Below are positions 16,201 through 42,000 of a stretch of 64,000 nt of DNA, piece after piece (position 1 is the first letter of the stretch; every line of letters begins with the position of its first letter). A program made the translations under genes and the position numbers. The stretch spans positions 13,982,513-14,046,512 of the forward strand of contig CM034547.1 of the NCBI GenBank assembly GCA_020055645.1, given 5' to 3'. This DNA is from Tomocerus qinae. Lineage: Eukaryota; Arthropoda; Collembola; Entomobryomorpha; Tomoceridae. The notes under the pieces were generated by a model, which searched no databases, was not told where the DNA came from, and worked only from the letters and a program-made list of their open reading frames with translations.

Positions 16201-19200
16201 TCCGACGTATTTACTACTACGGAGTACGGAGTGTTTGTAGTTTGGCGAGTGGCTTTCTACTTTCATTCCGTTCAGGATTCGATGACAGTCAATGAAATTA
16301 CCATACGTGAGAGTGAAAGTTTAAAAGAAAATATCACAATGGATTCGTAAGTGGATATATGTGTAGGAAGTGGACGTAGGTATAGAAGTAGGTAGATACT
16401 CCTACATTAATTGCGGTGAAAGTCATCATGTATAATTTGTGGCTATGTAATTCAAATTAAGCTAGAGAATTAATTGGAAGTTAGTGTGTTTTAATAAATC
16501 TCTAGTACTCTAGTCTCTAGTCAATTCAGTTGTGTATAGTTTCATTGCATTCATTCATCAAGCTGCGGATCGATATAACCTGACGAAGTGAGTGGCTGGC
16601 TGGTATTCAGAGGGAACGGAAGGAGCAAGTGAGGCAGTTGTTGTAGTCAACCCACAATCAAGTTAGAATTAGGTTCGTGCTAGTCACTCAAACAGGAACT
16701 CATGAATATGACTCATCATTCTTAAAGCATGAGGTTCCAGCTGAATCTAACAATAAGAAGCCACCATCATTTTATACTGTAATAGGAAAGTCAGAAATAT
16801 TCCTTTCAATTCTCAAAATAGTGAGTTGTGGAATATCTAAGCAGGTTTGGTTTATAGTGCAGCATGTGAAGAATTGTTGTAATACAATATGCATGATTGC
16901 ATGACTAAAATTGATTGAGCTTAGTTTCCGAGAAAAATGCAGGAGAAAGCAAACTGACAGTCAGTGGTGGATTAGCTCATAATATTATACATAGTGCAAG
17001 TGTAGCCTGGTCCTTGTTCTGTAATGCAATCTTAGTTCTACAACTGGATTGGTAAATAGCCTCACATTGTGACAGTACCGTACAATAGTAGTGCATTGTA
17101 AACAAAGTCAATTGTATACAATTTTAAAAGGAACTTCAATTGCATATTGCATTTAAGTTTATTCGATTTTTACTATTTTTGCTTAAAATAGGCATAGGTC
17201 ATACATGAGACAGAATAATATCATTTACTTTACATCAACTTAACTTACAACTTCGTGAAAACCAAGTACGCATTTTTTCTAGCTGCCAGTAGTATTTTTT
17301 GTCACCTATTTAATGAGTTTTAAAATGAACCTGGTAGCCCACTACTTACCACGAAATGTTTATGTTGATGACAATTTTCAGAAATCCACATTGCCTTGTT
17401 ATACATTGCAATTTAAGTTAATTTTCACCTTACTATGCTGCTGTAAGCCAACATGTTACATGGTAGTGCTAAAACATGCTTTGGTACGATTACTTAGTTC
17501 CATGATGGGTAATGCACATTGTAATCAATATAAGAGGTTACATTTATACATGACCTATTGCCTACATTACTTAAAATGTCGGGGCAGTCACCCACACCCA
17601 CCGTGTGTACATGTATGTTGTTTATCCCACTTAGTCATTGACGATTGGTAATGGTAACTTAACTGGATTGTTTTTTTAGGTACGAAAGACAAGTCAGGCT
17701 TGTTTATTGATGCTGTTGGAAAAAGGAATAGTAGCTCCGAGTCAAGTGGAAGAACACATCTGCCCGGTGATCCTAGAATTCACAGAATCAAGTGATGACT
17801 ATCGAACAGAAATCGTCAGTGTAAGTGACATTTATTTTATTTATTGTGCTAACTGTTTAGAGTTTCTGTTCGCATATTTTGTGGTCTTTTCATCCGTTAG
17901 GTAGGATTTGCTACGTTTCAGCAGTTTGCAGTCGTTAATTACTTATAATTCTTATCGACTAATTAAATAACAACAGTTACGACATTCATATATTTTAGTA
18001 TTTCTCTTTCATTCAAATGTTTCATCCGATCTATCTGTTCATGAATTGTATAATCATTACAAGATAAGAAGTATTGAGGTATTATGGCATTCTATGTTGT
18101 AATATGGTGAACATACTGTTGGATTAGAGTTATAACAGAAGAGAGTATAAGTAGTTTTATATAGTGATGATAGCATCGACGTATATCTTTTTCTTCTCAT
18201 TTAGAGCTGTAGTGACAATAGTACTTACGGTAGTATCGGTTACACACTATTCAGCTACACAGACAACTCACTTCACTCATTCACTGTATCATGAGTGCAG
18301 TGCAATGATGTGAATCCTTGCCGTGAAGTTACCATTTGGGGTTTGAATTGGATCAGATATCTTGACTAGAACGTGCTGTTGCTGAATGAGAAACATATTT
18401 ACATAATGTTGCATCACAGACGCAGCATCCTGGCTGGAGTGTGTAAAGCATATGATATATTAAAGTACACAATAGAAATGGGAGTCGTGGGATTTAGTCA
18501 ACTACGTGAGTTGTTTGGTGGAATAGTGGCTTATGAAAAAGACGGGAGTACTAGTGTGAGTGTTGTGGCAATACGATACGATGTAAATGTAACACTGAGA
18601 AGGAAGAAGTTTTAGAAGATATTGTACTTTGTGTAGACATTGGACGTTAATACTCCGCTTCGTCAGTACAGTGCAGTTCTCAGCAAGTACCCTCGCATCA
18701 TAACTCATGTAGTACAATAAATAAATACATATGTTCATGAATTTGTCGTAACGTCCTAGTCGTTAAAATGTCTACCTACTACAACTATTTGGAATACCTA
18801 AGTGTATAGAAATGAATGACTATTTTAAACTTATAACTTGCTAACCAAACTCTTATCTCTATGTAAGTTGGTATGTAGACAAGCATTTCTACCTACGAGT
18901 CCTGGTATTTGTGTTTCTGTTTGTTTCATTTCATTTACATATGGTCAACTTCTGTTAAAGATTATTTTGTAGTCTCATTCTGGTTTGCTTGTCATCTCAG
19001 ATGGAATATTTTGTAAGCAGGGACGGGAATAGGTAAATATGGACCGACGAGACAGGTATTTGCATTTTACATAGCAATAGTTGAAGTATCAGTGCTTACT
19101 GGCTTGTAGCTGGACTTGTTGGTAGACAAATATGTATCTATTGTTAAACATCAGCCTGTTATGCAAGTAGACGTAGTGCAATAATGCAATTGGTAGTATG

Positions 19201-22200
19201 TAATTTAATGCAGAAAGAAAGAAGAAAACTTTAGGGGCTAGACAGATGCTTCAATAAAATAGTTGATGAGATGAGACAATTCAAAGGGTGGAAATAATGA
19301 TATTTGAGATATTGATGGGTATGGAGAATAATAATAGATCGTTTATGCATTTATTGCTTTTTTCAGTTCATTTGTCCTTCTCTCCTATTACATAATACTA
19401 GTGTCTTCTGTCTTGATATATGAAGTTATGGGATGTCACGGGAAGTATTTCATACTTCCGCTCTCTCGTGAAAGTAGATACTTATGGCATTTGTGTAGTG
19501 TAATGTTTAGCTTGCTTTGCTATGTGTTAGTGCTAGATGACAAATTGTATTGTAGGCCCACCTATATAATACAAAATAAAATTATACAAGGATCCCATTG
19601 TATGAGCTGTTCTATTACCTTATTATCCTATGTAATGTCAAGTCTACCCCGGTACAATACCAAAATGCAATGTTCGTAGCAACAGCACATAGATAAAAAT
19701 GTTTAGTTACCACTACGAGTCTACAGAAAAAGGGAAGTTGGATTTGAATGTGTAGTATTTGGAAAGAAGCCAAAGAATGAGCTTTGCAATGCAAAATGCA
19801 AACGTTAGGATTGTTGGGTATACTCAGAGATAGCTAGAAGGAATGGCACGAGCCAGTCATTTCTATTCAAAAGTGACAATTGGATTTTGACGTTATAGAC
19901 GACAGCTTTTACAAATATGGTAATGCTATTTGATTTCTTAACATACCAGGTCATTTTTATAATGCTTATATACATTCTCCATGTGCTCTGTTGTTGCCCT
20001 TCGGCCATTATATGCATGAAAAGGCATCAGCCACCACCACCGGAAACGACAAAACCGGATGGATTCATAAGTTCTTCCAAAAATGCCCCTCTTAATTTTT
20101 CATGGTAACATCTGCACTGATTGCAATTGACTTCCGGTTGTCTAGAGATCTTTAGAGTGACTACACACTTATGAATTACAGTCCTAAGTATTTGATTGAT
20201 GGCAGAGAAGTTGTGATGAGTTAAAAACTCACCAGAACAATGTTAGCCGAATTTTTTGGTTGATTACATACCACATCTATTAGGGGAAATGATATTGTAT
20301 TATAAATCGTGGAATATCTTGAAAACATGATCAGTTGTAGGGCTTTTTTCATAGTTTTAGATAAATAATTATAGTTATATATTGGGATACTGATTTTGGT
20401 CTTGAGAGTTACAATTTCTACTACTACAAATATGAAAAAGCAAGCATTAAATCCGAAGACATACAAAATGATCCTCAAACTTCAAGTTTCTTCAATGAAT
20501 GATGGTAGAAGGCTGAAAGACATGGGTAGTGAGATGCTGAATGGCTTGATCATCTCACTACCTTGTCTTTCACGCTTTACGCCTAACTTCTCTTCCAATA
20601 GAATTCAGATGTAGTATACAACCGTGAGAGTAGCAGCCTATCATTTAAATCATTACTATACAGACTTGTTGGACGTTGGACGAAATTTCAATTTTTCACC
20701 ATTCGACATGTCGACAATCGGCATCAACAGAAGAGCTTTTTAGATTAAATTTCAATTGCTTGATCCTGTAGCGGTATGGATGATAGTGATACCATATTTT
20801 AATACTGTACGTGTGTTGTGTAACTTTTAACTCTTCCATCAATAATTTTTGTCAATTAAAAAGTCGTTCTGGTAGGTGACCATTATTACGTTGAAAAAAT
20901 TGTAGACCTAAGTATAGCTAGACACTATAGGTTGATGAAACGGAGAAGAACTTTCCTTAAGGTCGTCAAATTGGCTGGGAAATGTTTTAAACTCTGCATA
21001 TCACAGCCACCTTTGATGAGCTTTAAGCTAAGTCGGGACTTCTAATATAACATGAAGATGTAATTATCAAGACATGCAAACTACAAGCTGAAGGACGATG
21101 GATCTGAAGTTGAGCCATGTGTTGCTGCAATCATTGTCTGATGAAGAATGGGTGGAGCGTGTCACGTCAAATTGACTGTGGTGTGTCGTTTTTTTATTTC
21201 ATATCACAGCCATATTTGACGAGTTCCGATTCCCCCTTAATTTCGACAAGACAACAACGACTACTTCCTTCTGGATGTCAACAAGGTGAAGACTCTATAC
21301 ATAACCTATTTTAGAAGTTATTCTGTACGCGATTAGTATTATAAACGAGGAAGTAATCTAAGTGCTTGTTATGTGACTTTAGTACATAAAACAAGGTTTT
21401 ACGAGTTTAAATTTTGTTCAGACTACAATTGGTAGTAAATTGTGAAGATGAGGATAGCGCAATTAAACATTAATTAGTGTTGTGTTAATGTGTCTTGTTG
21501 AATGTATAATAGTAATGTTAATTATGTGTGTAGTACGCGGTGTATAAGTTGTAAGTGTAATGTAAGTCCAGCCCAGTCATTTAGCCTGTAAGTAAAAGAG
21601 AGCGAGGAAGATGTGTTCATGGTGGCTTGGCTGATAGTAAAATAAAAATGGATAAGCGAGCTTTAGCCTTGGTAAGCTGTTTGGTGCCATTTGGGTTTGG
21701 CTTGGTTTGGGTGTGTGTGGGTCGCGGACAGTGCTCCTGCTACCGGGGTAGAGACGACCGACGCGAGTGAGTGTTCTGTAGTGTGTGATGTGAGGTTAGT
21801 GATGTAATGAAAAGTAGTAAGTTTGAAGATGAGATGGAGATGGACCAAGACTACTAGCGCAGGAGTATGTACAATGGACTTCTAGCCATCGCACATGCAT
21901 TCTTTGCTATGATTATATGACTGAGCCGATGCACATACACAGGAGGGTTATATAGAGCAGTTGAATTCACTCACAATCTCCAGTTTCAGTTCAATTGAGG
22001 GAATGCGAAACATACATATAGGAGGAGCTTTAGCAGACGTCTGAGTTGACGACGATAAAAAGGCGAGGAGCCAGAAAGGAATCAATAAATAAATGCCAAG
22101 CAAGAAAGTATAAGATGTATTCGCGAGGTCTGCTGTAGTACTCGTCGTAGTAAAGTCAGTACAAGTACATAGTAAGTGAATAGTAGTAGTGCAGAGAGGA

Positions 22201-25200
22201 GAAAATAAATGTATTTATTTATACCCTTTTTGTACATAGTAATGTATGTATGTATTGTGTATAATAAGGAATGAATAGTTGTACAAAAGTAGTAATAGAA
22301 TAAGGACATAGTTTTATGCATAAATCCCTATATCTTGCTTCTGAACTTTATCTGTATACAGATGTACAACCGACACGACCATTCACTACTACTACCATTA
22401 TAGCATCTCTTTTCTATATATATCTCAAGTATACTGTTACAGTCTTCTGCGAAAATAATATCATTTTACCATCTAATGATATTTGCAGCCGTGAAGGAAT
22501 TGTAATCGTAGAACTAAATTGCATGAATATATTTTTAGAAGCTCCCCACTAGAAGCATTAATACCTGTGAAGACACTTGATTGTAGTTAATTATCTGGAA
22601 TGCTGCTGTGCTGGACATCTTGGTGTAGGGGTTAATAGGTAGAAATTACGTAATCCAAACAATACGATATTTTATTTTGTTGTACTCAGCTTTTTATCTG
22701 TATGTTACCATTTGGTACTGAAATTACATTGTAATTTTCTAGTAGTAGAGCATTCTGAGAAGATTGGTTTGTAGTTTCATAGTTTTGTTTTTATGCAATC
22801 GATAGTTAGGTATTGTGATGTCTATTGTATTTATCCGTTAGTAAAAATAGTAACGGTCCCCTTTCGATCATTACTGTAATGAGTAATGATAGTAATGAAC
22901 CAAAGACTCAGAAATTGTAATGCAGGTGGTGAGTATATGGCAAGTTGAGCACTTTCCTACATCCTTTTCAGAACTTGGGTATTGGATTTTCTTCTGCTGA
23001 CAAAGCGATGCATCATTCTTGGTTTGTTGCTATTCCCTGTTTTACTATCGGTTGTTAGCAGCTTTCATCGAAGATGTGAGCAATTTTGTTTACTACAGGA
23101 CAAATAGGTAGTCTTTGACTCATTTCTCCCTTCTTGTTCCTCCCGGAAATTAAATTATATCATCTCCTATCTAAAACATCGGCCCAGAATGATTTTAGTG
23201 CTTGCAAGTGTCTGTTGAAGTGAAACGTGTTATTAGTGGAATTTACTATACTACAGCTTTGAATGGTGTATATTCTAATTTGAAATTAATGAAAATGAAA
23301 GTTGAGGAGTGGGATGTTTGTAGGAAGTATAGGTAGATACTCTATTTGATTTTGATACTCAGCAGTTTTTAAATACAAACGTCGGTTACAAAAGCAGGAA
23401 GTGTAGAATAATTCAATTTCAATACTCTGGCAGCTGCACTCAGTATTGGAAACAGTAAAGTGAGGAAATAAGATGTACCTAAATGTACTTTATAGGGTTC
23501 TCTTTATGATTGGTAATTTGTATCCATAATGCAAGTGCCTGTCAAAAGGGAAAGTAAAGGAGAAAGGTTCTTAGGGTTAAACACAAAGTAAGTATTTCAA
23601 TATTTGGCGGAAGTCATAACAATTCCTCTAGCATCAGTCTATATTATATTACTTATGCTCAATTCACTGGTTATTAGATGAAATTTAACAAAATCTAAGA
23701 AACAATGTTTCTACGATGGGCAGCCATGTTGTTTTGGCGTTTCAGTAATGTACTAGTAATGGAGTAATGGCAGAAATTGTTGTTGGTTCTAGCTTATAAG
23801 TGAGATAATACCATCAATGAAGTTTTAAAAGCATTTGTATTGTCTGTGACTAGATTCTAGTAATTACTATTAGTTTATTAGTTACTTATTATTTACTAAT
23901 AATTATTATATAGTTTCATCTCTTACGTCTTCCTGTATCAGAAGCATAATAATGCCATTTTTGTGTACTTACACACAGAAAAGAGGGATAATTCATTTCA
24001 TCCACGATCATTTTAAGGATAACAGAAAAGGTCTAGCGGAAGTATTAATAAGTGATACTGTGTTTAAGCAAATTAACTTAATTTATGTTATCATTTACTA
24101 ATTGTGTAAGTGCATTGTAAAATTCAATGTGGTTGCTGTTTGTAATTGTAAGTGTGTATACCTGTAATTATGAGGTAATTATCAATAACACGTAATATTG
24201 AAGGGGTAAAATTGTAAAGTGTGCTTGTTGGCGTCCCTCTCAAAGTGGATGTGTGTATGTGAATAGTATCATATCACAGCCAGCTTTGATGAGCGATGAC
24301 TCAAGTTAAAGAACTCGCCGATACAGTCATTTTATTCTCTGTCCATGTGTGGTGAGTGTGTTATAAGTCATTTACGTTCTACTACATATTGATACATGTT
24401 GTTTTAGTTTGAATATAGTGTATCGGGTAGCCAATTTTGTAGAATAATGGAAGTTAAAGTATAATATAGATGGATAGCAACCAACAAGTGTATTTAGACT
24501 ACCTAACTAATGTTATTTGTATAAATAGAATATTATTCTTGGATATAAGTGCACAATTGTTAGTTAGTGTAAAGTATTTGGATCACTTGCAACGAGTTCG
24601 ATGTAATTTAGAGGAAAATGTTAAGATAGTATTTTGAATTGGTTAAAGAGTTAAATAGTAGTTAAATAGAGCGGTTGGACTTATGTGTAGTTGGGATAGA
24701 GTATGGGGTAAACGAAGCTTCATCAGACTTAGAAATAGTCAGGAAAATGGTTATTAGCAATATGTAATGCTATTCTTGTGACTAAGAATGTGATAGAAGA
24801 TAAGTGAAGTTGCTAAAAAGCATTGTAAAATGGGAGGGACTTGGCGATGGGATGACATCCTTATAGTAGTTAAGAGAGTTCAGTTCAGTTCACATCGTAG
24901 AAAGACTAGCTCACTGAACTGAAGTCAGCTCAGCGTCTATCAACTACATATTATACTTATACTACATTAATAGTAGTAGTATGACTGGTACTATTTACTA
25001 GTGATAGCTAGACCACGTTAGTAGACTAGTTACTCTACTACTATTGTGCATTACATTTTGTGCATCTCTATATAGTACTACTTAGTTGATTATCATTGAA
25101 CTCGTGCACTTACTACGCTATAGTTTATGTAGGTATGTAACGTAATGGTGTAGTAAGCTTTTAGTAGTGTTAAAAAACTGCATACTAGAAATAGTAGTGG

Positions 25201-25804
25201 TAGTAAAGAAGAGTGACTATATCTGTCGGTTCGGTATTCAGTATGTTTCGTATTGACGTTGTGGCAATAGTTATGTAGCGTTACATAATAAGGAGTATAT
25301 ATTTAGTTGATAGTAGAAATAATATTCTGTGAGTGTAAATAGTACAGGGTACGGATATAGACTTTGAACTAGTTAGTTGAGTAACATGTCCCGTGTGATG
25401 GCATAGCTTAGCATGACATAAGTACGATATGGCAATCATGGAGTGGAGGGAAGTATTCGGTCGGGCCCGGCACGGGTTAAGTTATGTTTTGTACAAGGAG
25501 GTGGATCACTCTCCGTTGGATCCTTTCAAGTTGGTTGGTTGGTATTTCTGGCAAGAGCTCATTCTGGCGCGTAGCGTTCTCAATTACCCGGTCCGAACCG
25601 AAAGATAAACATCATTAGCATTGCTCTTTTAAAAATTCTTTTCCTTCATGTGCTTAGTCCTCTCGATACACAGTCACATTCACACTCAACTATAATCTAG
25701 ACTTAAATATACGGAGTAATGTAATAAGTACCTTTCTTGGTACAGACTACTACTACAAGTGAACTGTAGCGAGCGAGAAGACATGGAAATAAGATGATTC
25801 TCTA

Positions 25805-25836
<32 letters not shown>

Positions 25837-28800
25837 TCATCTGTCTCTCTACTCATTGTCAGTTATTTGAGTATCCTGTTCTCTCTCACAGTCACATTAT
25901 AAGAGAATGAACTTTAGCACCACGTTTTTACGTGTGCAACATTTCTACTACATTTATACTAGTAAAAGTAATAGTAAATTGTAGTTGCATACCTACATTA
26001 ATGTACTATGTAAAACTACAGCTCATCTCTCTTCCTTCTTCACCTAACGAACCTTTGCTTTAGAGAAAGGCTCTTTCCTACACACTACTATTTGTGTCAT
26101 CTACACTCGACACCACTACTTCGGAATGGCAAATGGCTAAGACAAAACTCATAAATGACTTACCTACTTAGCCTCCTATTGGCTCCTGCTTTTCCTAAAG
26201 TGCATACAGACTAACATTTTCTGTTGTTATTTTATACTGCCTCTTCTACTATATATGTTCCTTCACTAATGTATACAGTAACAACATCAATCCACTTTCA
26301 TTTTTGACGTTATTAGTGGAACTGATTGCGAGACGAGATTAGGAGATTCACTGAAGAAAACATTTAACATCTATTTCACTTAGCATATCTTCTTTACTGA
26401 TTAACACTCTTCCCCAAGCTTCTTCTAGCTCCAACTTAGTTCAAATGGCTGTACCCATTTTTCAGAGTTTTTTGTCAATTGACGCTTTCCATTACGGTGA
26501 CCAGATCATATCTACTCAACCTTTTTGGGTTCCTCCATTTTACATTAGACATTATGCTGTTGAAATGCTTTTAAACAGTATGTTACCAACTACCATGCCG
26601 AAGTTTTATGCCAATGAAAGAGCATTAGACACTGTGAAAGTCTGACTAATTATTAGTACGACGCATTTACAGAGACATCCCAGATAAAATTTTATATTTC
26701 TGTCGGGGAGTTACAGATTTTTTACTGTTTTCATAGCAGTTTACATTGACTTATTTGTTGCAGTATTATTGGACATAGTCAAATTACAGATGTTCATTTT
26801 ACAGCTCCATGTTGAACAACAATATTTTTCTGTTCTTTTGGCAAGATGCATGTTCAGGAAGGATGATGGGGATGAGCAAATGTGGACATGGGTGACAGCC
26901 ATTGCCAGAGGATTTTTTCCAGTCTCCCATTTAGTTAGGAAAAGGGAGTATGAAATGTTCATTTGTACATATATAGTCATCCCATCCAAGATCCGACGTT
27001 GTTTTTCTGCTTGCTTGAATGACATTTATAGCCCCGCCAAGAGAGCCGCTTCTTTCTTTGTAATAATTTTAAAGCACTAGTTCCGCTAACTTGGTTTCTC
27101 TTTGGCCACATCTCTACATTTTACAAATGCAAAATTCGGATATTTTTTTGTGCCCGTTAACTATTAACCATTTTTGTGACATGTGGGATGGTGAAATTGA
27201 TCTAAGTTTCCTAAGAAATTTAGAGTTTACTCTTACAGCTGTAATTTCCCTGTTATAGCATTTAATGGTACCTGAGTAGAAAGCATTTTGGTATTGACTT
27301 TATAAGTCCTGTTCTTTAAGGAATAATTTAAGGAATATTACAGAACCTACCTTTATGGTAATACATATTAGAAAGCATTGTGTTAATGAATAGGAAATGA
27401 CGTTGAAGGGTCTTCTAACCAATGTAATAGTAGCCATGTTTTATGGTACTAGACTGTGTAGTCTAATTGAGCAGTGTGGCAGATCCTATAGCTCGCTTTT
27501 GATGGACATGAGTTAGTGACATTTTTGTTGAACAAACATGAAAAAATATGCTAGGTCTGGGTTACCAGAAAAAGCAATTCTGTGCAAGTGTATACATTTA
27601 ATAGAGGAAAGAATAGGAGAAAGGAAATAGTTTTGTCTTTATTGTCAGCTAAGTAATAAAGTTGGATTCAGTAGTACAGAGTGTAGTAGTAAATTGACTA
27701 GAAAATATTATGAGAGTGTTGTCTGACTAGTCTGAGGATGATTTTGGTTTGACCTAGCATTTGGATATAATGTGCATAGATATCTGTGGAAAATATACAT
27801 TGTCTTTTTCCTCACTGTGTCCTTCTACTTTCCACTAACTTATCATCTTTATTTTTGTTAGAAAGCACATCCACCGTAAAGATTCGTTTATAGTAGTCGA
27901 GGGCAAGAGATATAATTTGTCTAGCTTGAATCTCTCTGGTAGTTGACTCTTGAAAGTGCATAAAATGTGTGGGTCAAGTGAAAGTGTCTATTTTATTAAC
28001 TGTCCTGGGTGTTGCTTAAAGTTTTACGGTGATCGGAGAGAGGAGTTGGTTTTAGTGTTTAGTGTGTTGGTTAGGAGCGAAGGTTGTTGGAGAGAGTGCG
28101 AGGATTCATCAGAGAAGTTTCATCATCCATCCTAAGAGCTCTTTGTCCATTCTGGATGCAATGCAGAAGAGAGGGAAAGAGGGAAAGCAGAGTATAATGG
28201 TCTGAAAGATGCATTATTTAGGATCAGCGTTGATGTCCTAGTCTATCGCCGCAGACGGCGGACGAGAGTCGAATACTAATGTCGATTTTGAACTCAAATA
28301 TGCGGCGCATTATTATTGGGATCTTGTACATAGAATTTTATCCCATTTTCTTCCACATAGTCTTAGGGACCGTTCAGACATGGCGAGAACTAAGTAGGGA
28401 GAAAGGAAGGTCACTAAAATCATCTCCCCCTTCCCTTGATCAAATTATCAGGCATGAATGTGCAGAGTCGAAAGGTTTTCATGGGGAATCTTCCCCCTTA
28501 AAAATCCGTCTTCGTCATATTTGGCTTCTCCCGCAAGACGAAGAAGTGAGTGTGACTCTTCGACTTTTGGTTCTTCGTCCGGCTGTATTCAAAAGAATAA
28601 AGTTGAGCTTGGTTGTGTTGGGATAGGAGTCTGTGGCGGAGGATGAGTGGATAGAAGTGCCGGGCTCAAGTCGGCGGACAGACGGGAGCGGGATCTCGGG
28701 AGTGAGTCTTCCAGTCTCCCTTCCTTTTTGCTTTCTTCTTTCCCTTCAATTCTTGTTACCTCAGGATCTATTCAACTTTTACGTGATGTCATGTACACTC

Positions 28801-31800
28801 CAACTTCTATTAATGTAAATGCATCTTCCCACTCCATTATTGCTCTTTCTATATTATAACAAATGTGCTCTAACTCAACTGTTCACCCATCCAGCACTCT
28901 TCCGCTCTCTCTCTCCTTGTTTTCCTTCTTTCACTTCCCTTCTATTTCACAGAAAATTTATTCCTTCTCATATATAATCTCATTTTCTCATCAAAATCTG
29001 TATTGTATGTACTTAAATGCGTATGCTCCTGCCTTGCCCTCCATCCCTCCCGTTTCTATACTCCGGAAAGTCAACTTAAGTACTTAGAGCCAAAATCATT
29101 ATTTTATTCCTCATATACTCTCTCCGCCGAGTAATGATACTATCGATGTCTTGTACAGCTTTTATATTAGCTAGTTTTGGCATCGCTCCTTGTTTGAGGT
29201 ACTTTCACATTTTATAACACTCACTGAACTATTTAAATGCCTAAAATCCGGACATTTTATTTCTAACTTAATGTTAATTTTATACCGGTGCACATCAAAA
29301 TGAAAGATTTCGAAAATATATTCATCACCCTGCCTGTAGATGTGCTTTGTAATTTGTAACACCCGTTTTGTTTGATGTGGCTGTATTTGAGTCTACCTTT
29401 GAAGTACTTCATCAAAGACTTTTTTAAGCAGGAAATAACAACTAATCAGAGGCATGTACTAGTATACCATATTACTTGTTCCTTACCTAGCCTTGTGTTG
29501 AGGATTACTTCAGTTACAATTTTAATCTTTAACCGCACAAGTTTCTTTGCAGTTATAATATTGTTTTTGTACAGTTTTTGGATAACACGTAATACTAAAT
29601 TAACTCATTCTCATACAATTGACAACACATTTCTTACATCATTGTTCACAAGGTATGTATATTCAGTTGATGTTTGCATAAATCCTTTAAAAAACAATTA
29701 TCTACTACCTACTAGAAAATATAATGAAGGAGAAAAAAACAACGGGAAAGGACACCTGTATTCATGATTGTAGATTTAGTTGGCACTTTATTTCCTTAAA
29801 AATATTTACACTTATAGTATTTTGTTAGTTGGTATTAGCGTGGTGTGTGAAGTGCTTGTTACACGACTTATGACGACGACGAGGACTCTTTGGAGGGCTG
29901 AGAATGGCTAGGGAAATGTCTGCAATTTGTCTGGTGAAGCTTATCAGAGTGGATGTGGTGTGTGGAAATTGTTTCATATCACAGCCAGCTTTGATGAGCT
30001 TGGCCGCGCACCAATTCATCTCGTCTATCCATGGAACAAGACGATTAAACTATCAACAATTCTGTGCAAAAATCGTTGATAGTACGGTAGCACCAGCCGG
30101 CAGCTAAATAACTACTCCATCGACTATTTACTTGTGTGCTACCACAAACTGTTTTGTAAACCTCTATCTATACGCCTATACATTTAAGCTGAATCTTTTA
30201 TATGTAACTTAATATTTGTATAATATTTATTTGCCTTTCTCTCCAGCATTAATATACTATAGTTTGTGATTGTAATGTAACCTGTTTGTACAGAATCCTT
30301 CGCTTGAATTTATCATTTCTACTCTAAATTTATGTCTCTTGATAATCTAATTTCCTCTGCTAAAAGGAAATAATCCAGGAAATGATTGATCCTGATTCTA
30401 TAACACAATGTACCTATAATGTAAAATGCATTTACTAAAGTTACTTTACTTTACTTACAACTACTCTGTGCGAAGTAAGTAAAGTAATCAGTTTAATTAG
30501 TAAAATTTGTTCCAACCCAATTAGGATCTTTTAAGTGCATGTGAAATTGTCAATTGTCACTCTTATGGTAAATGTAAATTGAATTGAAATAGACGAATAA
30601 AAGTTTATACGCATTATTAGTATATGGCTGTGTAGGACAGAGAAATCATTTTAGGTGGAAGTTGGAATTGGAGAGGAAAAGAGTAAATTGTGGTGAACAG
30701 AAGCATGGAAATGGGAGTGTGTGGAGGTTGTGAGTTCAATGTATTAGTACTGGTAGCAGTGTGGCTGTAGTTTGAATTTAGAAGAGTTAAATCGATAGTG
30801 TCAAGGTTTCATGAGGAGTCTGGTCGGAGTCTCGTCTGAGATATATATTGTTTGATTTGCCAAAGTATATAAGTAAGAAGGCCAGGTCAGGAAACAGTTG
30901 AGTTTCAAGACGTATTGTATAGCGTAGCATGAGTAGAGCTTTAATGTGAATCAAGATTATGACAATTTTTTATGCATTTACCTTTGGCTCACACAGCTTT
31001 GCTCATGTCGATAAAGAAAAACAAGATAAATAATAGAAAGAAAATAAAAACAATCGAAAGGCAAAGAGTTATAGTTTAAAGACCCAGGCTAGGCCACGGT
31101 GCTAGTATTTTCTCCATTTATCAGCAGTAATGTGATATAATGTTTAGTCGATATGTTTCATGTCGACAGTGGACTGGTTGTATATGCAGACAGAGTATGC
31201 CATGCTCAGTATTTTGATTGCATCTGTGAGACTGATGAAAAGAACACTTAAACATGATACACTTGTAATTCATAATAATATTTATAGTAGTGACTAAGGA
31301 TTTAAGCATTATGAGAAACTACCGTCGATTTAAAGATAAGTAAATAATAAGAAAAAATGTCTGTATTGGTTACAGTTCATGAGCATGTTGGCTCCACTCG
31401 TTGGGAAAGAGATTACGGTGAAAACGTACCTGGATCGCTATTGCACCTTGTGTGAGGACCCCATGTTTCAAGTGAGACGCGTCTGTGCCACGAGTATGGG
31501 CGATATTGCCACAGTCATCGGTACCAAACTCACAGAACTTGTTCTTGTAAGCAATCTCTTTTTCTTTCATATTTTAAAGTTTGGCTAACAAAAAATATTT
31601 AATTGCCAAAAAAAGTATTAATTCACAAGTGATAACACACGCACTTTTGGCCTATACCTATTACTAATACATACTTTAGGAAATTGATGCAAAAAGTAGT
31701 AATTCTTCAAGTTTCTTGCATGATCTTTTTTGTTTTGTCCAGTTGCCGAAATTCTTGGCATTAAGTGGGGATGAAGTTTGGGGTGTCCGAAAAGGCGCCG

Positions 31801-34800
31801 CAGAAGTTTTCACAATAGTCGCAAATGTTTGCAGTTTGTCAACTCGTAAGGACACGTTATCACCCCGTTTTGTTCATCTACTCACAGATCCTTCCAGATG
31901 GGTCCGTGTAGCTGCTTATCAAACACTCGGTCCTCTCATCACAACATTTGCAACTGATGATGGTCATACAGTATCCCCTGACCCTGACTCTTCTGAAGCT
32001 GAAAGAAATTTTCTCCATCGGTAATAACACATAAAAATAACATTGGGAAACGAGATTCACTGTTTTAATTTCAAAAGTTTCTGTCGAGAACGTTGACACA
32101 GAGTTTTAGTTAGAGACCTTAAGGAAGGATAGCCATATTATAGACTCTTTAGTGGTAACATCATAAAGTTACTCCTCAAGTTATTGTTTTTACTTCCTTT
32201 AAGAGACAGTAATGAGATATATTTGGACATGTGCTAGTCTTAGTTCGTTAGTGCAGTATAGTGATAAGCAATAAGCAAGTAGGACAAGACGGAAAGATAG
32301 ACTAGACGTGTGCTTTGTGTAATATAGTATTGTCATTAAGTAGATTTTGTTTTGGCACCATGTGTCTACGACTTGGCCCCTGCCGAATAAACAACTACAT
32401 ATTATATGCATATATTTATATTCTATGTAATAATAACCATGTGTATAATGTTCAGTATATTTATTTGCCACTATACCTACCGTTAATATTATTAGTCTAT
32501 GGTAGTTTACTATACTGTAGGTGCACATGGTAGCATTCGGAAGAAGATTCAATACTATGTGTTCATTTAGGTTGGGTGTAGCATAAAGAATCTACTATAT
32601 CTCTTGTGTAGGATGTCTGTAGTAGAAGTTAAGTAAGACTCTGTTGACTATGAAAGATCGAGTGACTAAATTGGGTAATTGTAAAACATCTTGTTCTCAT
32701 ATGTAATCTCCGCGGCAGGCCGAGCAAACGACATATCAAACTCGTAATGAAAAAATACATCTGCTGTAGTTCTGCTGTCTTGTCTTGTCTCCAGAGTTTC
32801 ATTTATCTTGAGCAAATAGGAAAACCATTGCATTGCATCGTATAATAATCCTATGACAGAAGGAAAACTCTTTTCCCCTTACATGATAATTATAAGCAAC
32901 CAACTGCATATATTACCCTGCAATAAAAATAATTGTTTTTATTTTTCGAAAAGAAGCCTTATCCATGTAGGAGAAGTAAATAGGGAAAAGAGTGGAAAAG
33001 CATGTGTGATATGACGCAGAAGCCAGGTATATTCCAAAAGTGTAAAAGTTAGCTAGTACGACAGACGGCGACGTAATTTCATTAGGAGCTTCATATACCC
33101 TTAGAAAATAGGTGCAGCTTGACGGTCAGAAAAGGGAACTCTTTGTCAGTAAACATTATATATCTATATAGATAGCCTGGAGGTGTGTGGAGGGATATTG
33201 TACAAAATGCATCGCAAGTTATTGTGGTATGATTGTGTTAGGGACGGCAGAAAGGGTTTCCATTCCGAAAAACATGATGAAATGAAGCTGAAGGTTTGGG
33301 AAGTTAGACAGGCACACTTTTAAAAGCGCTGTTAGTCAGTAGACGCTTACACATTTGTCGTGTGGCTATGGCTGCTGCTAGTTTGGTGAGACTGTGTATA
33401 TAAGCTAGCTGGAGAGGAGTTTGTAGTTAGTACGGATGTAGGGTGGCTCTTCTTTGACATGGTTGCAGTTGCAGCTTTTGTAAATGTAGCCAAAGCTAGG
33501 AAACTTTGTAACGCTGTGCTCTGACTGAGTTGAAGTTAGACAGTATGGAAATAAATGACGGAGGGTAGGGTAGGACGAAGATAGGGTGGTTCCTTTCCGT
33601 GCAACGTTCAGAAAGGACAGATATATTATTATATCCTAAGTCTATGTATAAGTATGTATGTATTTATAGCGTTGGTTGTAAGTAGAAGCATAACTGAGGA
33701 CAGACTAGTGCAGCTATGTAATTCGGGCTTGTATGGAGGAAAGGGTGAGAATATTAGTTAAGTTACAGGAAAACACATATATATGCGTCGTAGTGAGCTG
33801 TAGTGGTTATAAATAAACAAGTATAGAAAGGAGAGGCGAGGAGAAGCGTCATTCTCATTTATGTGATGCATCTTGGTTTTCAATTTTTGAGAGTAACATG
33901 AAAATGGACTGAAAAATGGAAAAGACAGTTGTGTTGCTGCAAGTAGTAAATTGTAATTGTATGTGAGTGTGGCTGTGGCTTAGAGGAGCAGATGTTGCTA
34001 GCTTTTGGGTTTGCATTTGTATGTTTCTAATCAATGGATGAGAGTCATGTCCTACGACCATACGGATAGGGCAAGACAGAAATGTTTTTTTCTCTCTCTC
34101 TCGCTCTTACTAATTCTGTACTGTTAAGTTGAGTTAAATGGAGTTGATTCCCTGTAGTCTGTATGTATGTAGTCTTTACAGTTAGGCGAGTGTAAAATAT
34201 AGTATGTTTCAGGAGTAGAGAAAATGAAGTCAACACGACAGAGTTGATTATTGTCTGTCCTTTTCCTGGACCGAAGTCAAGTGAGTGAAAGAGGGAGAAT
34301 TATAAATCGTAGGGAAACGGGGAGAGTCATATAGCATTCAACACTTTGTAATTTAGGTGCGTTGAGTAGCGTCTTTCCTGTCGTTTTCAGTGCTAGATGA
34401 ATGAGATGACGAATTTTTTGGTTTTCTGGTCTGTTTTTTACAGGAGGAGTTGTGATACGGTATTGACTATCGAAGAGGACATAGCGTTGGCAGTTGGAGG
34501 AGCAGTGAACCCGGGAGAAGAAGGCGAGAAGGCAATGCAAAAGGAGCAAGGAGCACAAACAAATTTAGTATTAAAGACAGAAAGTTCCCAAAATTCAAGT
34601 CAGTCATCTGTGATATTTACGGCTATTGATGAGACTGGGACAGCAAGCGACGAGCGTGACGATGACGAGAAAAGAGCTTGTTTCGACTCGGACGATATGG
34701 ATATTGATGATTGGGAAGATAAGAGCCAGAGCGGGGATCAGGAGCAGGAATGTCAACCGAAATTATATAACGAACATAGGAATCGTAAGTTCGTAAAAAA

Positions 34801-37800
34801 AGTAAATCGACATTATGAGAAAGAAAAGTTACAGGAGTCTAATGATCCTTCGGATCGTGGAGATGCGGATGCTTCCTTCATCGTCTATGAAATGGCCACA
34901 AGTCCAGATAAGAGTTGTGATGATGGTGAGGCTGACAGCAAGCAAATCGATTTGAACAATACTGCTTGGTCCATTAGTAACTTATCGTCTTCCAATGTGT
35001 CTTCCAACAATCCTAATACAGATCAAGAAGTTTCATGCACTATAATTGTAGCGTCTAAAAAGCCCGGGCTAATTCGGGAAGATAGCATCATGGAGGGACC
35101 GAATGCAAACACTAATACAAATACAAGTACGCTTCCTTCAGGTCAAAACCCCTACAATACATTTCAGTATTGGCGTCTCCCTGTTCCAGAAATACTCATT
35201 GAATTCGACGCAGATCTCCCAATGAACTCTTTGGAGAATGATGCACAAGAAAATAATGATACACAGGTACCTTTTATTTAAAAGGATAGTTTGATTTTTC
35301 GAGAAAAGTGTTTTGGAGAACAAAATGGCAGACTGGAACTGGAGTGTGTTGACTCATCATCAAGAGCATTATAGGAATAGGTTTTCAGACGAGATTTTCA
35401 GACTTGACGTAACGTAAAGGAACATTAAAGAAATTAAACGGTTTGTGTAGAGTAGGCGGGGATTTAAAGAGTTACGATACAGATAGAACATGACGTGGAG
35501 TGCTAGTGCAAATATTGACAATCCTGTCCTGCCATCTTTTCTGGACAGAAGCCAGTTGTCCCAGGGAGGACTTTCATGTATATATTATCTGTGGATGTAA
35601 TGTGAGGAAGGATGGTGTAGATAAATCGCCCGTTTCAGATCCGATGAGGTAGGTTCAGTTACATTCGATGAAGTTAAGTGTGGTTGCCTGAGTATGTGAA
35701 GGCTTACACAAGGATTAGTCCTTCCACTGTCAACTCAAATTACCATCCAAAAATCCCAAAACCTACTTTGATTTTGATTCACATTTAAAAATTTATATCT
35801 CACTCACTCCACACCACAATAATGTTCCAAGATAAAATATCACCACCATTCACTAATGGGAACGACCAAACCTCTGTTCACTATTCACTACTGTCGATTT
35901 ATTTCTCAGCATATCGAAGATTTTTAAGAGTATTTCAATTTTAAAGTAAACACTATGCATAATGAAGTCTTAATTCATCATTTCTAGTTATTCATGTAAA
36001 AATGGCCAATTTACTATAGTAGTAAGCACTGTATCTTTTTTTAGGCTTGTGAATAGTCATACACTTTTGTCAAACCAATGATTGGGTTAGAGTTAGAGGA
36101 AACTACTACTGTACAGCTTGTACTTGAAAATGCTCTCCCACAAATTCCACAATTAAACGAAACCAAATGAATTATGTTATATTGATAAAGACTGATTTTT
36201 TGTGTGGTCATCCAGTTCTTGGAAAGAGATTATGCAATGCACCATTTTCTGCTACACTCCATGAAAACTAGAATTTAAATATCTTTCCGTAGTTCTTGTA
36301 ATTCCAAATGGTCTCCCATTTTATGGGTATCATGAGACATGGGCTCAAGAAAGTGTACACATTTATATTACACTTGTATACCTATAACTTATAACTACTT
36401 AGTAGGTAGATTGTGGATTGTGAGCCATACTACAGTAGCATAGCTGAGTAAGATTGAAACTATAGTATAGGAACAGTGGGAAGAAAGGTTTCTTTGGCAT
36501 TCGGTGAGTATTTTCACTATAAACCAACATTTGAACATTATTTTCCATTTAAGGCTTAGTATCTACTAATCCTGTCGTAAGACGTAAACACGGGTTTAAT
36601 TAGTGCTATCTACTTTATTCATTTGTACTGCTGCTGTTCTTGTGCGTTTTCTTTCGTATAAGGAATGAGGTGCCTGTGCCTGCGTAATTTTATATCTTGA
36701 GCATTTATGTAGTAACAGGATGATGTATAACAAAGCAACACATGGTTAGTCTGTTTTATTTCCTGTGTCGTTTGTCAACACCAAGTAGAGTGTAACATAA
36801 TTTCTTGTGTGGGAGCGAGCGGAGGGATTACGTAATATTTAGTATATAAAGGAGAACAATGCAAAGCTGTATATAAATTCAAAAATAACTAAGTAGTAAA
36901 TGAAAAGGGGGAAATATTTAGGTAGAAGGCGGGTTCTATTTGTTGCCGATCCTATTTTTCAAAACACTATAAACACTGTTCCAGGATCTAGCTAGTTAAT
37001 TTATGTCTTATTTGTTTTACTTGTGAATTATGACATCTAAAGCAGATTTTATTTTTTCCTGTGCTAATAGAATGCGAATGAAAAGAAATGCGAAGATGCC
37101 TTAAACGGGAATGTGGAGCTTGACAATAACGCTTCCGGTTCGACGGAGTCGACCACTCTCTCTTCTCACACTAGATCCACTAAAACAGTTAGTTGTGATA
37201 TCTTGCAGCGTGTGTCTGGTATGTCTATAATATGCCTCTTTAAGAGGATATAAACTGTTATTAGAGTGTACCAGAGATTTGGCTCTGATTCCAGTTATAC
37301 ATCATTTCGTTGTGATTTTACAGATGTGCATAGAAGCTACTTAAATTTGTACAATGCGTCCAGAGATCAAAATGGAATGGATGACATGGGTCTGGATACA
37401 ATTAGACTTATGGATCCTTATGATGATGACTCAGATGATCAATTCAGTAGTCCTTTTCCATATGGAGAAGATTGCTCAAGTTTATGGAGTGGTAAGCTGT
37501 TTGTTACTCTTTCGTGCATGTAAGGAGTGATAGAAATGATATCTGCGTTGGATTTCTCTTTGCTATACATTGTTGTTTATTTGTAGCAAAACCAACCAGG
37601 AGTCGTCTTCTTCAGGATATCCCCAAGATGGTTACTTCTGGACATCAAGATATTGTACCTGATGCTCTTCTAGAACATTTTAATTCTATGGCTAATTTAA
37701 ATAAAGAACAGGCATGCGATTCGGAGTTAACTGGCTACTGTGTTTACAATCTTCCGGCTGTTGTTCACACTATGGGTCCACAAAATTGGTCCATGCTTAG

Positions 37801-39025
37801 GGATTGTTATGAAGCCTTAGCTTGTAGTATGCAGGTAACGTGAATAAGATCATATTATTTTAACAGTTGAATGTTGCTAATAGTATAAAATATGATTTGA
37901 TATTTTTGTTTCAGTGGAAGGTGAGATACACTTTGGCTGCCAGCTTACACGAAATAGCTCGAGTTTTAGGCCCTGAGTTGGCAGAGAGAGATTTGGTTCC
38001 TTTTTTTAACGCACTTACAAAGGATTTGGATGAAGTCAGAGTGGGAATTTTACGAAACCTATCTAACTTTGTCGAGGTAAAAAATACTATGATTGTGTAT
38101 TAAGAGGATTGGATTGGGAGAAAATATGCGGTGAATTAATTGGTTTAATACATTACAGATTCTGGGAAAGGAAGAGCGTCGAAAATGTCTAGAAACTTTG
38201 AGAAGCTTTTTAGAAACCGAAAATAAACGTAATTGGCGGTTCCGGTTGGATTTGACAAATCAGCTAGAACAATTAAGTGAAATGTTTGAACCTGAAGACG
38301 TCCTAAAGTACATTTGTCCCATTTCAGTGGATTTAATTTTAGATGGTGTAGCAGAAGTGCGGCGGAAAGCCCTTGAAGTTGTAAGAAATCCTTTGCTATT
38401 CTACTGGTCCATGAAATAGCTCATTGGTATTAATGCCCCTTTTTATTGTTTTGGCATATGCAGGTTACTCATTTAGTTAAACAGTTGAACGCATGTACTA
38501 AGATAAACTCAGAAGGAGGAGAAACGAATTTGGTTCGGGAATTTCTCCTGGAGCTGGTTAACATCCTAGGACACAGTGACAGATGGGTAAGAAGACAGAC
38601 TTTCGCCAGCCTTTCGGGTCAATTTGTGGAATTTGGTGCTCTATCACCCAACCAATTTGCTCAAGATATTTTACCACACTTAATTGATCTCAGCTCCGAT
38701 AAGGTTCCCAATGTTCGCCTCATAGTAGCTAAAACGCTAACAAAATATGTTTTAAAAAACGGTGAGTGTTTTTAAAATAGTTTTTAAAAAATCTTTCTAA
38801 TTAAAAATAGTAATATAGTATTAATAATGGTATGGGTTTTTGTGAACAGAATATTTTGCTGATTCCAACAATCCGCACAATGAAATTTTAATGTGTACAA
38901 TGGGGAAGCTTCACAGTGATTCAGATCGAGATGTGCGGTTTTTCAGTGCCGAAGTACAATCAGAAGAAGTAGAAGAGGAAAGCCGAGAGGCAGAAAAGTC
39001 AGATGAAAAACCACTAAAATTGTAG
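1246..39025 (+). CDS. PPP4R1: Serine/threonine-protein phosphatase 4 regulatory subunit 1 (5' partial)
   Basis: This is a HEAT-repeat scaffold that binds the PP4 catalytic subunit and directs its dephosphorylation activity. Phase-consistent exons are 1246-1352, 15409-15551, 17680-17820, 31376-31546, 31743-32020, 34444-35266, 37071-37218, 37324-37491, 37587-37834, 37915-38076, 38159-38380, 38464-38761 and 38850-39025 (stop TAG). Together they give about 1,028 residues, against 950 for the whole human protein. HEAT-type stretches resembling vertebrate PPP4R1 include QLPQIALFCHE (exon 2), VRKTSQACLLMLLEKG (exon 3), LVGKEIT and VRRVCATSMGDI (exon 4) and DPSRWVRVAAYQTLGPLI (exon 5). Exon 6 (274 codons) is an acidic, Ser/Asn-rich linker ending in FQYWRLPVPEI, the counterpart of the human FHFWRTPLPEI. 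Exons 9-12 return to HEAT repeats (WKVRYTLAASLHEIARVLG, NWRFRLDLTNQLEQL). The extreme N-terminus, probably under 100 residues, is outside the window. The 13.6-kb third visible intron hosts a microRNA cluster. Homology was judged by recall of the family sequence, with no alignment run. Confidence 0.95.
9050..9480. other. GC/CpG-richer island inside the PPP4R1 14-kb intron
   Basis: Several CpG-containing words (GGCGCGC, GCCGGG, CACCGCTCCG) cluster in otherwise AT-rich intron DNA, followed by a short CT microsatellite. An internal promoter or enhancer is possible. No TATA box, initiator or coding content supports a firm call. Confidence 0.25.
12230..12480. other. GC/CpG-richer island inside the PPP4R1 14-kb intron
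   Basis: The region contains CpG-rich words such as TCGATCCGGATTCGG and GCGGCGCTGCGC, unlike the surrounding AT-rich intron. It may be regulatory sequence or a non-coding alternative first exon. No reading frame here resembles a known protein. Confidence 0.25.
15552..17679 (+). other. PPP4R1 intron (2.1 kb)
   Basis: Intron between exons 15409-15551 and 17680-17820, with donor GTAAAG and acceptor TTTTTTTAG. It holds a three-copy imperfect tandem repeat at 15778-15927. A 112-codon open frame near its 3' end (17313-17651) has no recognisable homology and looks fortuitous. Confidence 0.8.
15778..15927. repeat. Three-copy imperfect tandem repeat, about 55-bp period
   Basis: The phrase GTTCATTGGAAA, followed about 10 bases later by TATGATTTCAT, occurs three times, starting near 15783, 15838 and 15894. 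Copies differ mainly in the AT-rich spacer. This is a local tandem duplication in the PPP4R1 intron. Confidence 0.8.
20505..20580 (+). ncRNA. mir-71: miR-71 precursor hairpin
   Basis: The 5p arm at 20514-20536 reads TGAAAGACATGGGTAGTGAG and continues to ATG, the conserved mature miR-71 as I recall it. The 3p arm at about 20553-20574 (TCTCACTACCTTGTCTTTCA) matches the known star strand. The arms pair almost fully around a roughly 14-nt loop, and the stem extends through GAAGGC/CGCTTT outside the mature duplex. miR-71 is conserved in protostomes and was lost in Drosophila. It normally heads a cluster with miR-2 genes, as here. It lies in the sense orientation within a PPP4R1 intron, so processing from that transcript is plausible. 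Confidence 0.97.
20956..21027 (+). ncRNA. mir-2: miR-2 family precursor hairpin, first copy (ACC variant)
   Basis: The 3p mature strand at 20999-21021 begins TATCACAGCCACCTTTGATG. This keeps the miR-2/miR-13 seed ATCACAG and the TTTGATGAGC tail, with CC where the common form has GC. The 5p arm at about 20965-20985 (GTCGTCAAATTGGCTGG) pairs with it, and the stem extends outward through CTTAA/TTAAG, giving a compact hairpin of about 72 nt. It lies 0.5 kb downstream of miR-71, the usual order in invertebrates. Confidence 0.94.
21155..21235 (+). ncRNA. mir-13: miR-13-like (miR-2 family) precursor hairpin
   Basis: The 3p mature strand at 21202-21224 begins TATCACAGCCATATTTGACG, with the miR-2 family seed and the TTTGACGAGT tail typical of miR-13. 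The 5p arm at about 21165-21185 starts CGTCAAATTGACTGTGG. Its CGTCAAAT pairs exactly with ATTTGACG of the 3p arm. It sits 0.2 kb after the preceding miR-2 copy, close enough to be cut from one primary transcript. Confidence 0.94.
24228..24305 (+). ncRNA. mir-2: miR-2 precursor hairpin, second copy (canonical)
   Basis: The mature strand at 24272-24294 begins TATCACAGCCAGCTTTGATG and, as I recall the sequence, is identical to canonical miR-2a-3p. The 5p arm (CTCTCAAAGTGGATGTG, about 24237-24259) resembles known miR-2 star strands and pairs with CTTTGATGAG. It lies 3 kb downstream of the miR-13-like hairpin, unusually far for this cluster. Confidence 0.94.
25811..25837. repeat. CT dinucleotide microsatellite
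   Basis: An uninterrupted run of about 13 CT units, followed by degenerate CT-rich sequence, inside the PPP4R1 intron. Confidence 0.95.
28210..28720. other. GC-richer patch in the microRNA-host intron
   Basis: CpG-containing words such as TCGCCGCAGACGGCGGACG and AGTCGGCGGACAGACGGG stand out from AT-rich surroundings, between the second and third miR-2 copies. An internal promoter or enhancer is one explanation. The open frame here (28279-28626) resembles no family I know. Confidence 0.25.
29930..30010 (+). ncRNA. mir-2: miR-2 precursor hairpin, third copy (canonical)
   Basis: The mature strand at 29977-29999 has the same sequence as the copy at 24272. The 5p arm (CTTATCAGAGTGGATGTGG, about 29939-29961) forms the star side, with GCTTATCAGAG pairing against CTTTGATGAGC. 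The loop and flanks differ from the other copies, so this is an independently maintained locus and not a recent duplicate. It lies 5.7 kb after the previous copy and 1.4 kb before the next PPP4R1 exon. Confidence 0.94.
32021..34443 (+). other. PPP4R1 intron (2.4 kb)
   Basis: The intron splits an Arg codon between exons ending at 32020 and starting at 34444. AT-rich, with no recognised gene, RNA or transposon. Confidence 0.8.
35267..37070 (+). other. PPP4R1 intron (1.8 kb)
   Basis: Intron between the long acidic exon (ends 35266) and the exon at 37071, with donor GTACCT and acceptor CTAATAG. Nothing recognisable was seen inside. Confidence 0.75.
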
Positions 39026-42000
39026 ATTGTTTAGAAAATAGTTAATGTAAGAATTACAAATTGAAGTCTACGCACGCATGCAACTGAACAACATTGCTAA
39101 AATAATGTCAACTGTGCCATATTATTCTAAAAAGGCCTAAAATTTTACTCTGTGTATCTTGCGCAAGTACACTATATATATCGGTTAGCGCTAAATCCGT
39201 TATTACAACTCTTAGCATCTTATACTTAAATCTTCGGTCATGACATGAAGAATATCTATTAGTGAAGAAAGGAATTACATAGCGGCTCAATAATTGCTTA
39301 ATTAAAATTGAAATGTAACGTGAAGTTTTAGTGTTAAAAATTGTGCTCTTAACTTAACCTTACGTAACTTACTAATTACAAAGAAATCAATTTAAAGTAT
39401 GTTCTATTGTAACATGAAAAACTACGGAAGTATTTAAACTCAAGAAAATTATATGTATGCAACCGGCTTGCCTATAATTACTTTGGTTTAAATATAACGA
39501 TGATAATAAGCTAGTTGATAAAACGTACTGAAAATTTGTGATAATTATCAAATTAGTAATTAAACTACCTATTAAATACCTTCCCTGACTACGTGTTAGA
39601 GTATTTAGACAAAACGTTATTATAATGATATTCTTACACTCGTCCTAAATGTTTTGCGCAAACAAAATGAGACCAATGTGAATTGGTCAAGTCGCAAGTT
39701 TACCTATTAATTAGTGTGATGTGATGTATCTATTAATATACATTAGTAATCTCCTGGTATTCTTATTTAACTATTACTGTTATTCTTCTTCCATCAAACA
39801 AAGTACTTGCTCTGTATATTAACATATATTGGCTTATACCCTTATATTATTATAATTACTTGTTCTGAAATGTGAGTAAAGAAAATGAAAAGTAACTATT
39901 TAGCTCATTGAATACTTATTTATTACCACAAAGCATGCTAATTTTATGAAATTCGCAGTTGGCTACAATACTCGGATTATAATTCCAATCTTTCATTTAA
40001 TTTTCCCTTGGATCAAAAAATTCGTCTTGATACGTACATGACCGGGCAAATAATTTTTCCTTAAGAGTCCAGTTCCTTTACATTTCAAAATCTCTGATGA
40101 CTATCAAAATACATGTAAAAATTGTTTTACAACTCTTGGAATTCTGTCTAAAGTTCTTACCCGATTTTCTTGTGTGGCACATTTTTGTAATCCTGAATAT
40201 ATTGTCGACCACCCCATTGTACAAAATATACGATATTTTTACTCATTAATATATCTTATTGCGATTACAATTTTGTAGACGACAAAATCTGCTAGAAAAT
40301 TTAAATATCGTATATTTTGTACAATGGGGCGGTCGACAATATATTCAGGATTCCAAAAATGTGCCACACAAGAAAATCGGGTAAGAACTTTAGACAGAAT
40401 TCCAAGAGTTGTAAAGCAATTTTTACATGTATTTTGATAGTCATCAGAGATTTCCAAATATAAAGGAACTGGACTCTTAATGGCACGCTGTATTGAGGGG
40501 GGAAAATTTTTTCTCAATCGAAATCGACTTCTAAATACAGTACTGCAGAACGATTACGATAAGGGTAGAACTTATGGATCCAAATAAAGAAAATATGTTT
40601 CTAAGAATATAGTACAATTATTAAGAGATTGTCGTTTCGGTTTATTTTGGCATTGCACTACTAAACCATTACGAGAAACTATAACTTATTTTTAAATGTA
40701 TACATCTTGGTCATAGTCTGGGTGTGACTCATGCACAAGTCCTTCCTTTAAAGTGGTTGAAAATAATACAAAAATTTCCTAGTACACAACAGAACGTAAA
40801 TAAATACTAAAAAGTATATTCATGAGCCATATACTGATGACGTTGCAGATGCTTTCCAATAAGCCTGGTACCATAGTCAAGTCACAAGCAATATTTCACC
40901 ATGTTAAAATCCGTCAATATGTTCGTTTTCACGGAAGGACCGTGCCATTTTATAAGCCCGATACGTCGGGAAAACTAATGAAGGGGTGCAATAAGGGCGT
41001 TGTAAATGTAAACATGAAACATTTGAATAAATGGTTAAAATGTAAATGACCAATAAGCCACTTCAGTCACAGAACGTTCAGATATTTATTAAAGATACCA
41101 GTAACATTATAACAACATCAATACTTCTTCGGGATGAGACTCCCAGTCTAAAGGATTGTTTCAGGGTGATTATATTTTATGTGCACTCTACAGACACATA
41201 TTCATCACATTCACTCACGACTACATGTACAGTACATCACATCACAATTTCATCACTGCACCACTCGCTATATAAGACGACATAAATTCCTTTCGTACTA
41301 CTCGATTTAAATTCCCAGGGAATTTATTTTGGAAATTAATATTTCAAGCCCTATGTATTAGCATGAAAATAGCTAACCGTTCTTCTAACTTCTAAAAAAT
41401 TGAATCAAACAATTTAAGTTGAAAGTATTTGGCCCAATGACAAAGTTTGTGGGAAGGGATGGATTACTACGGTATAGTTTTATCCTATTTTCACACTATA
41501 AGAGTGGAGTGCAGCTTGTATAAAGATAATATAGCGCATATAATATTAACATTAGTAGTTGGTACATTTGGTATGAGATTTCAGCTCATAAAGTTAAGAT
41601 ATATATTCTTATTATACCAAAGCTAATTACGCGTGATTATGAGACATTATACTCAGCAATAAACTAATAATGTTTTAAGTTTTAAATAACAGCTGGGCAT
41701 GGGTATTTAGCGATAACATTTAGAGCAATGGGATTCGAACCAATGATAGTCTCTCCCACTTCAGGTGAAGTTCGATCCACATTGATTTAGAGTATGTATA
41801 AGAATTGACATTTATTTCACTCAGATAAGATGCATCAAGAAAGCATTGAAAAAAACGACTAATTGTACAGCGATGCAAAATAAACAATATAAAGCCAAAG
41901 CATACCTTATCACAAAACAAAATTAAGAAAACAGTCGACTATTGCATATTAAAAATATAGATACGAAAAATGACACGTGGACATGGCGAGTATATAGTAA

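Follow-up and report, generated by a model that had tools for sequence, protein, structure and literature searches.

A 64,000-nt window of the genome of the collembolan Tomocerus qinae (GenBank assembly GCA_020055645.1, contig CM034547.1, positions 13,982,513 to 14,046,512 of the forward strand; coordinates below count from its first letter) very probably holds, at a probability of about 0.92, an ancient protostome mir-71/mir-2 microRNA cluster that lies in sense orientation within the largest mapped intron of PPP4R1, the gene of a regulatory subunit of protein phosphatase 4 (PP4). When the whole window was scanned with Rfam on both strands, five loci gave matches at the gathering level, with E-values from 6.1e-13 to 1.2e-6 for a search space of 64 kb. 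The mir-71 precursor (20508-20579, + strand) exceeds the RF00832 threshold with 70.2 versus 50 bits, and all four mir-2-family precursors, likewise on the + strand, exceed the 45.5 bits of RF00047: 20959-21025 (58.2 bits), the miR-13b-like 21160-21228 (61.8), 24234-24298 (49.6) and 29937-30003 (59.9). A preliminary description of this DNA, made from the letters alone, had named five mature positions and placed mir-71 first, with the mir-2 members after it on the sense strand; the Rfam matches fall at all five of these positions, and the scan agrees on the order, with mir-71 5' of the mir-2 members and one strand throughout.

The mature sequences support the same assignment. The miR-71 mature sequence TGAAAGACATGGGTAGTGAGATG is located at 20514, where the 5p mature UGAAAGACAUGGGUAGUGAGAU is exact (20514-20536) and identical to the sequence printed for silkworm and thrips; comparisons with published clusters, here and below, draw on passages of the papers concerned. 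In each of the four mir-2-family precursors the 3p mature (20999-21021, 21202-21224, 24272-24294 and 29977-29999) starts with UAUCACAGCC. The 11-mer TATCACAGCCA is present at 20999, 21202, 24272 and 29977, against a chance expectation of 0.03 occurrences in the window, both strands counted, and the 10-nt core ATCACAGCCA, sought in the same space, occurs four times, exclusively at these four sites. An exact 21-mer of mir-71 has no match in viral contigs and none in prokaryotic contigs.

Folding bears out the claim that each hairpin has a pairing opposite arm. In order along the cluster, folds of 96-101 nt have z-scores of -7.0, -4.0, -5.1, -3.6 and -5.0, and shuffled sequences as stable as the native fold number 0, 0, 0, 1 and 0 of 200 per hairpin; in the predicted folds, 18-21 of the 22-23 nt of each mature arm are paired. 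The predicted star sequences (3p 20553-20574 for mir-71; 5p 20963-20984, 21164-21185, 24238-24261 and 29941-29962 for the mir-2 family) are 22, 22, 22, 24 and 22 nt long. Thus, all five loci combine a stable hairpin, paired arms and an overhang-type duplex, with the reservation that the 2-nt overhang was imposed in the star prediction, so that the resulting lengths are its informative part. The predicted miR-71 star is one base off the thrips star printed in PMC6053560. Chance hairpins are ruled out by the E-values, the fold z-scores and the word expectation.

Does the intron hold further members? An E-value-based scan of 17600-31700 returned 18 matches. Apart from the five loci and overlapping matches on either strand, these include just two weak, sub-threshold candidates, MIR2617 (29.9 versus 46.5 bits) and MIR2086 (23.8 versus 50), which are taken as chance. 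An antisense mir-71 match (20507-20578, - strand; fold z-score -6.6) reaches 53.0 bits against the gathering threshold of 50, because the mir-71 stem is nearly palindromic; its product, if made, would share the mir-71 seed. This match is regarded as a by-product of the stem and is not claimed as a gene.

Names within the mir-2 family are less settled than membership. The copies at 24272 and 29977, both labelled miR-2 in the preliminary description, each retain a complete 23-nt mature sequence that equals the printed silkworm miR-2. The copy at 21202 has one mismatch to the printed silkworm and thrips miR-13b, and "miR-13-like" is a fair description of it. The copy at 20999, also labelled miR-2, is one substitution away from miR-2 and one inserted base away from thrips miR-13a; its sequence is intermediate between the two, and the plain label is arbitrary. 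One insect study treats Mir-13 as equal to Mir-2 (PMC5121899). In the literature searched, no printed occurrence of the exact 22-mers of the 20999 and 21202 copies was found; the exact 24-mer at 24272 occurs in two gastropod papers, and the other three words tried gave nothing. This gastropod match was not treated as pointing to a mollusc, its 23-mer core being shared with insects.

The identity of the host was approached by tblastn with a human PPP4R1 query that was not drawn from a database record. Nine of the 15 rows listed are collinear with this query at 25-57% identity, from 15405 to 38757 on the + strand; the remaining six are out-of-register matches of HEAT repeats. The host intron (17821-31375, 13,555 nt, + strand) opens with a GTAAGT donor and closes with a TACAG acceptor. 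The exon before it (17680-17820, +) ends in ...SSDDYRTEIVS in phase 0, and the exon after it (31376-31546, +) begins with FMSMLAPLVGKEIT; the two join in phase, as the preliminary description had held, across a GT-AG intron. Downstream on the same strand follow a HEAT-repeat exon (31743-32020), a large acidic linker exon that carries a NPYNTFQYWRLPVPEI motif (34444-35266) and the C-terminal HEAT exons (37646-38757, the outer tblastn borders, with several splice sites approximate). PPP4R1 has two HEAT blocks parted by a long acidic linker, unlike the PP2A scaffold subunit A (PR65). Here, Pfam detects HEAT repeats in one stretch of each of two blocks, and the long linker exon between them is without a Pfam match. 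The 20 PDB matches of the hand-joined host peptide are all PP2A chains, nearly all of them named as the A or scaffold subunit; the HEAT-linker-HEAT architecture nevertheless sets the host apart from PP2A-A, which is ruled out by the long acidic linker together with the collinearity with the PPP4R1 query. Judged by this collinear similarity, the host gene is PPP4R1.

The exons of the gene are mapped from about 15409 onwards. Of the ten steps mapped between them, the host intron is the longest and the runner-up measures about 2.4 kb, several borders past 37300 being approximate. Growth of the intron by local repeats is unsupported by two scans: 17600-32000 holds two tandem arrays, both short, and at an E-value of 1e-5 a comparison of the intron with the window yields, besides self-matches, only the distal mir-2 pair and the mir-71 palindrome; elements that are single-copy within the window would escape this search. 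Gaps of 3.0 and 5.6 kb precede the distal mir-2 copies and place them 3.0 and 8.7 kb past 21228. Because 24240-24294 and 29944-29999 are 87.5% alike across 56 nt, their sequences suggest that one distal copy is a duplicate of the other. The wide spacing has a parallel: Blattella germanica has Mir-71 and five Mir-2 with one gap of more than 12 kb, and cluster length is correlated with genome size (PMC5121899).

As a cluster it is a typical example of the well-described mir-71/mir-2 arrangement, and most of what it shows is known already. The B. germanica cluster likewise has mir-71 first, several mir-2/mir-13 members and a long spacer, with five mir-2 members versus four here, and the silkworm and thrips mature sequences are near-identical to those of T. 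qinae. Spider, scorpion and horseshoe crab clusters also consist of mir-71 and several mir-2 copies; chelicerates, however, generally have duplicated clusters on separate scaffolds, whereas a single cluster is found within the 64-kb window. Only the host is mildly new, being shared with Caenorhabditis elegans, in which, as here, both families lie in same-strand introns of the PPP4R1 orthologue, although mir-71 and mir-2 occupy separate introns there and all five hairpins share one intron in T. qinae.

How old, then, is the PPP4R1 address? In C. elegans, ppfr-1 hosts both mir-2 and mir-71, in different introns (Isik et al., PMC2835999), mir-71 lying within a large one (PMC3410857); a published table lists ppfr-1 as the counterpart of PPP4R1 (PMC7735605), and PPFR-1 is one of the proteins named as nearest orthologues of regulatory subunits of PP4 (PMC6952425). 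The two microRNAs form a tight pair in Haemonchus contortus, and in C. elegans some 7 kb lie between them (PMC3282659), and mir-2 is held to have arisen inside the mir-71 transcript (PMC3763532). Since the host of the T. qinae cluster matches ppfr-1, the address is probably ancestral, and we hold with moderate confidence, on the literature and one locus, that mir-71 and mir-2 were already in PPP4R1 at least in the common ancestor of nematodes and arthropods. The base of this reading is one arthropod locus and one nematode gene, and separate insertions into PPP4R1 in both lineages may account for the same pattern.

Several observations weigh against an ancient cluster with a PPP4R1 address. One of the five hairpins, that at 24272, is the weakest, at 49.6 bits against 45.5, with 1 of 200 shuffles as stable and a 24-nt star. 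The two different introns in C. elegans, set against the one intron here, leave homology at the level of the intron unsupported. The passages of PMC3282659 on the H. contortus pair leave its host unnamed, and those of the insect and chelicerate papers on mir-71/mir-2 make no mention of introns. For opisthorchiid flukes, the abstract of PMC4405270 counts two gene clusters but a single intronic microRNA, miR-190, which makes it less likely that the flatworm clusters lie in PPP4R1. The preliminary description had asked if the PPP4R1 location is ancestral; the answer is a probable yes for nematodes and arthropods, and the fluke data speak against a wider origin. As to precedent, the Brugia, chelicerate, insect and honeybee passages give no host gene for mir-71/mir-2, and none of the matches listed, in two cases 20 of 337 and 15 of 38, states a PPP4R1 host for an arthropod in print; subscription papers were mostly outside this search. 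A few listed papers that contain a miR-71-like word together with PPP4R1/PP4R1 (PMC5408686, PMC12548577, PMC8286839) deal, judging by their titles, with retrocopies, human diabetes and NF-kappaB.

If the ancestral reading is true, a microRNA-host pairing has been retained across ecdysozoans, and PPP4R1 is perhaps the birthplace of mir-2. The shared host allows one to ask, in two phyla with laboratory models, why ancient intronic microRNAs stay put, and it makes two alternatives separable: shared transcription and embedded regulatory elements. The PPP4R1 location may have been kept through an interleaving of microRNA enhancers with the host, and perhaps also through feedback of miR-2 on the PPP4R1 mRNA at the 8-mer site described below.

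By homology with known clusters, production of the microRNAs would begin with a primary transcript made by RNA polymerase II and started at the PPP4R1 promoter, at a promoter within the 2.7 kb that separate the upstream exon from mir-71, or at both. Drosha and Dicer would cut the five hairpins, the host exons being spliced normally around them; arm choice would favour the 5p arm for miR-71 and the 3p arm for each of the four miR-2/13 products, and these four, which have the common seed AUCACAG, would act on targets predicted by the same homology. Which promoter would dominate? The preliminary description had envisaged that processing from the PPP4R1 transcript would tie microRNA production to this gene, and the evidence gives such coupling only partial support. 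Its strict form, in which the hairpins are processed solely from PPP4R1 pre-mRNA and output follows PPP4R1 transcription, agrees with the sense orientation and the single long intron; the nematode relatives, however, have promoter activity separate from the host, and we consider this version unlikely. In C. elegans, promoter reporters are broadly active for mir-71 and mainly neuronal for mir-2, and the overlap of mir-71 and ppfr-1 expression is partial (PMC2835999); moreover, ppfr-1(tm2180), a potential null, lacks the effect of mir-71(n4115) on the asymmetry of the AWC neurons (PMC3410857).

Because of these reporter patterns and the ppfr-1 result, we prefer transcription that is mixed or independent to a strict coupling. 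In the fully independent version, the cluster is driven by a promoter of its own within the intron, its transcription is largely independent of PPP4R1 and its location is passive linkage; we give this version an even chance. It would account for mir-71 and mir-2 reporters that match ppfr-1 only partly and for the difference between the two mutants in the AWC assay, and the 2,693 nt between the host intron donor and the mir-71 mature start would offer room for such a promoter. A combined TATA and initiator pattern is absent from the + strand of the intron, a weak point against it: the pattern is crude and rare overall, with 3 sites per strand in 64 kb, which makes the scan uninformative.

The cluster may also act back on its host. 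The miR-2/13 8-mer target word CTGTGATA has its sole + strand site, a perfect match, within the linker exon of PPP4R1 (34608-34615), whereas the count expected in the approximately 2,855 exonic bases is 0.046; the search used two seeds, miR-2 and miR-71, and the site lies within coding sequence. From the linker exon to 48580, the + strand has no miR-2 or miR-71 site of the 7mer-m8 type, the only 7-mer type covered (7mer-A1 was outside the search). Feedback of miR-2 on PPP4R1 mRNA through this candidate site may exist and is offered as a lead only.

Elsewhere in the window, the translations of 40054-40275 (+) and 40242-40553 (-) resemble each other, which gives 40031-40553 the look of an inverted repeat that may belong to a mobile element. 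Proline/glycine/methionine-rich frames at 46675-47403 (- strand), of which 46675-47127 is without a Pfam match, presumably resemble the tail of the SSBP2/3/4 single-stranded DNA-binding proteins. Long open frames at approximately 54137-60400 (+), including two stretches without a Pfam match, are assumed here to belong to an SMG1-like kinase gene. Finally, an NDUFS3-like gene, for the 30-kDa subunit of complex I, occupies 61975-63099 on the - strand: Pfam PF00329 matches 62169-62540 with an E-value of 7e-35, and the best PDB matches are 8esw (397.6 bits) and 8b9z (388.3 bits), both of which we take to be Drosophila complex I entries, with the next at 358.2 bits.

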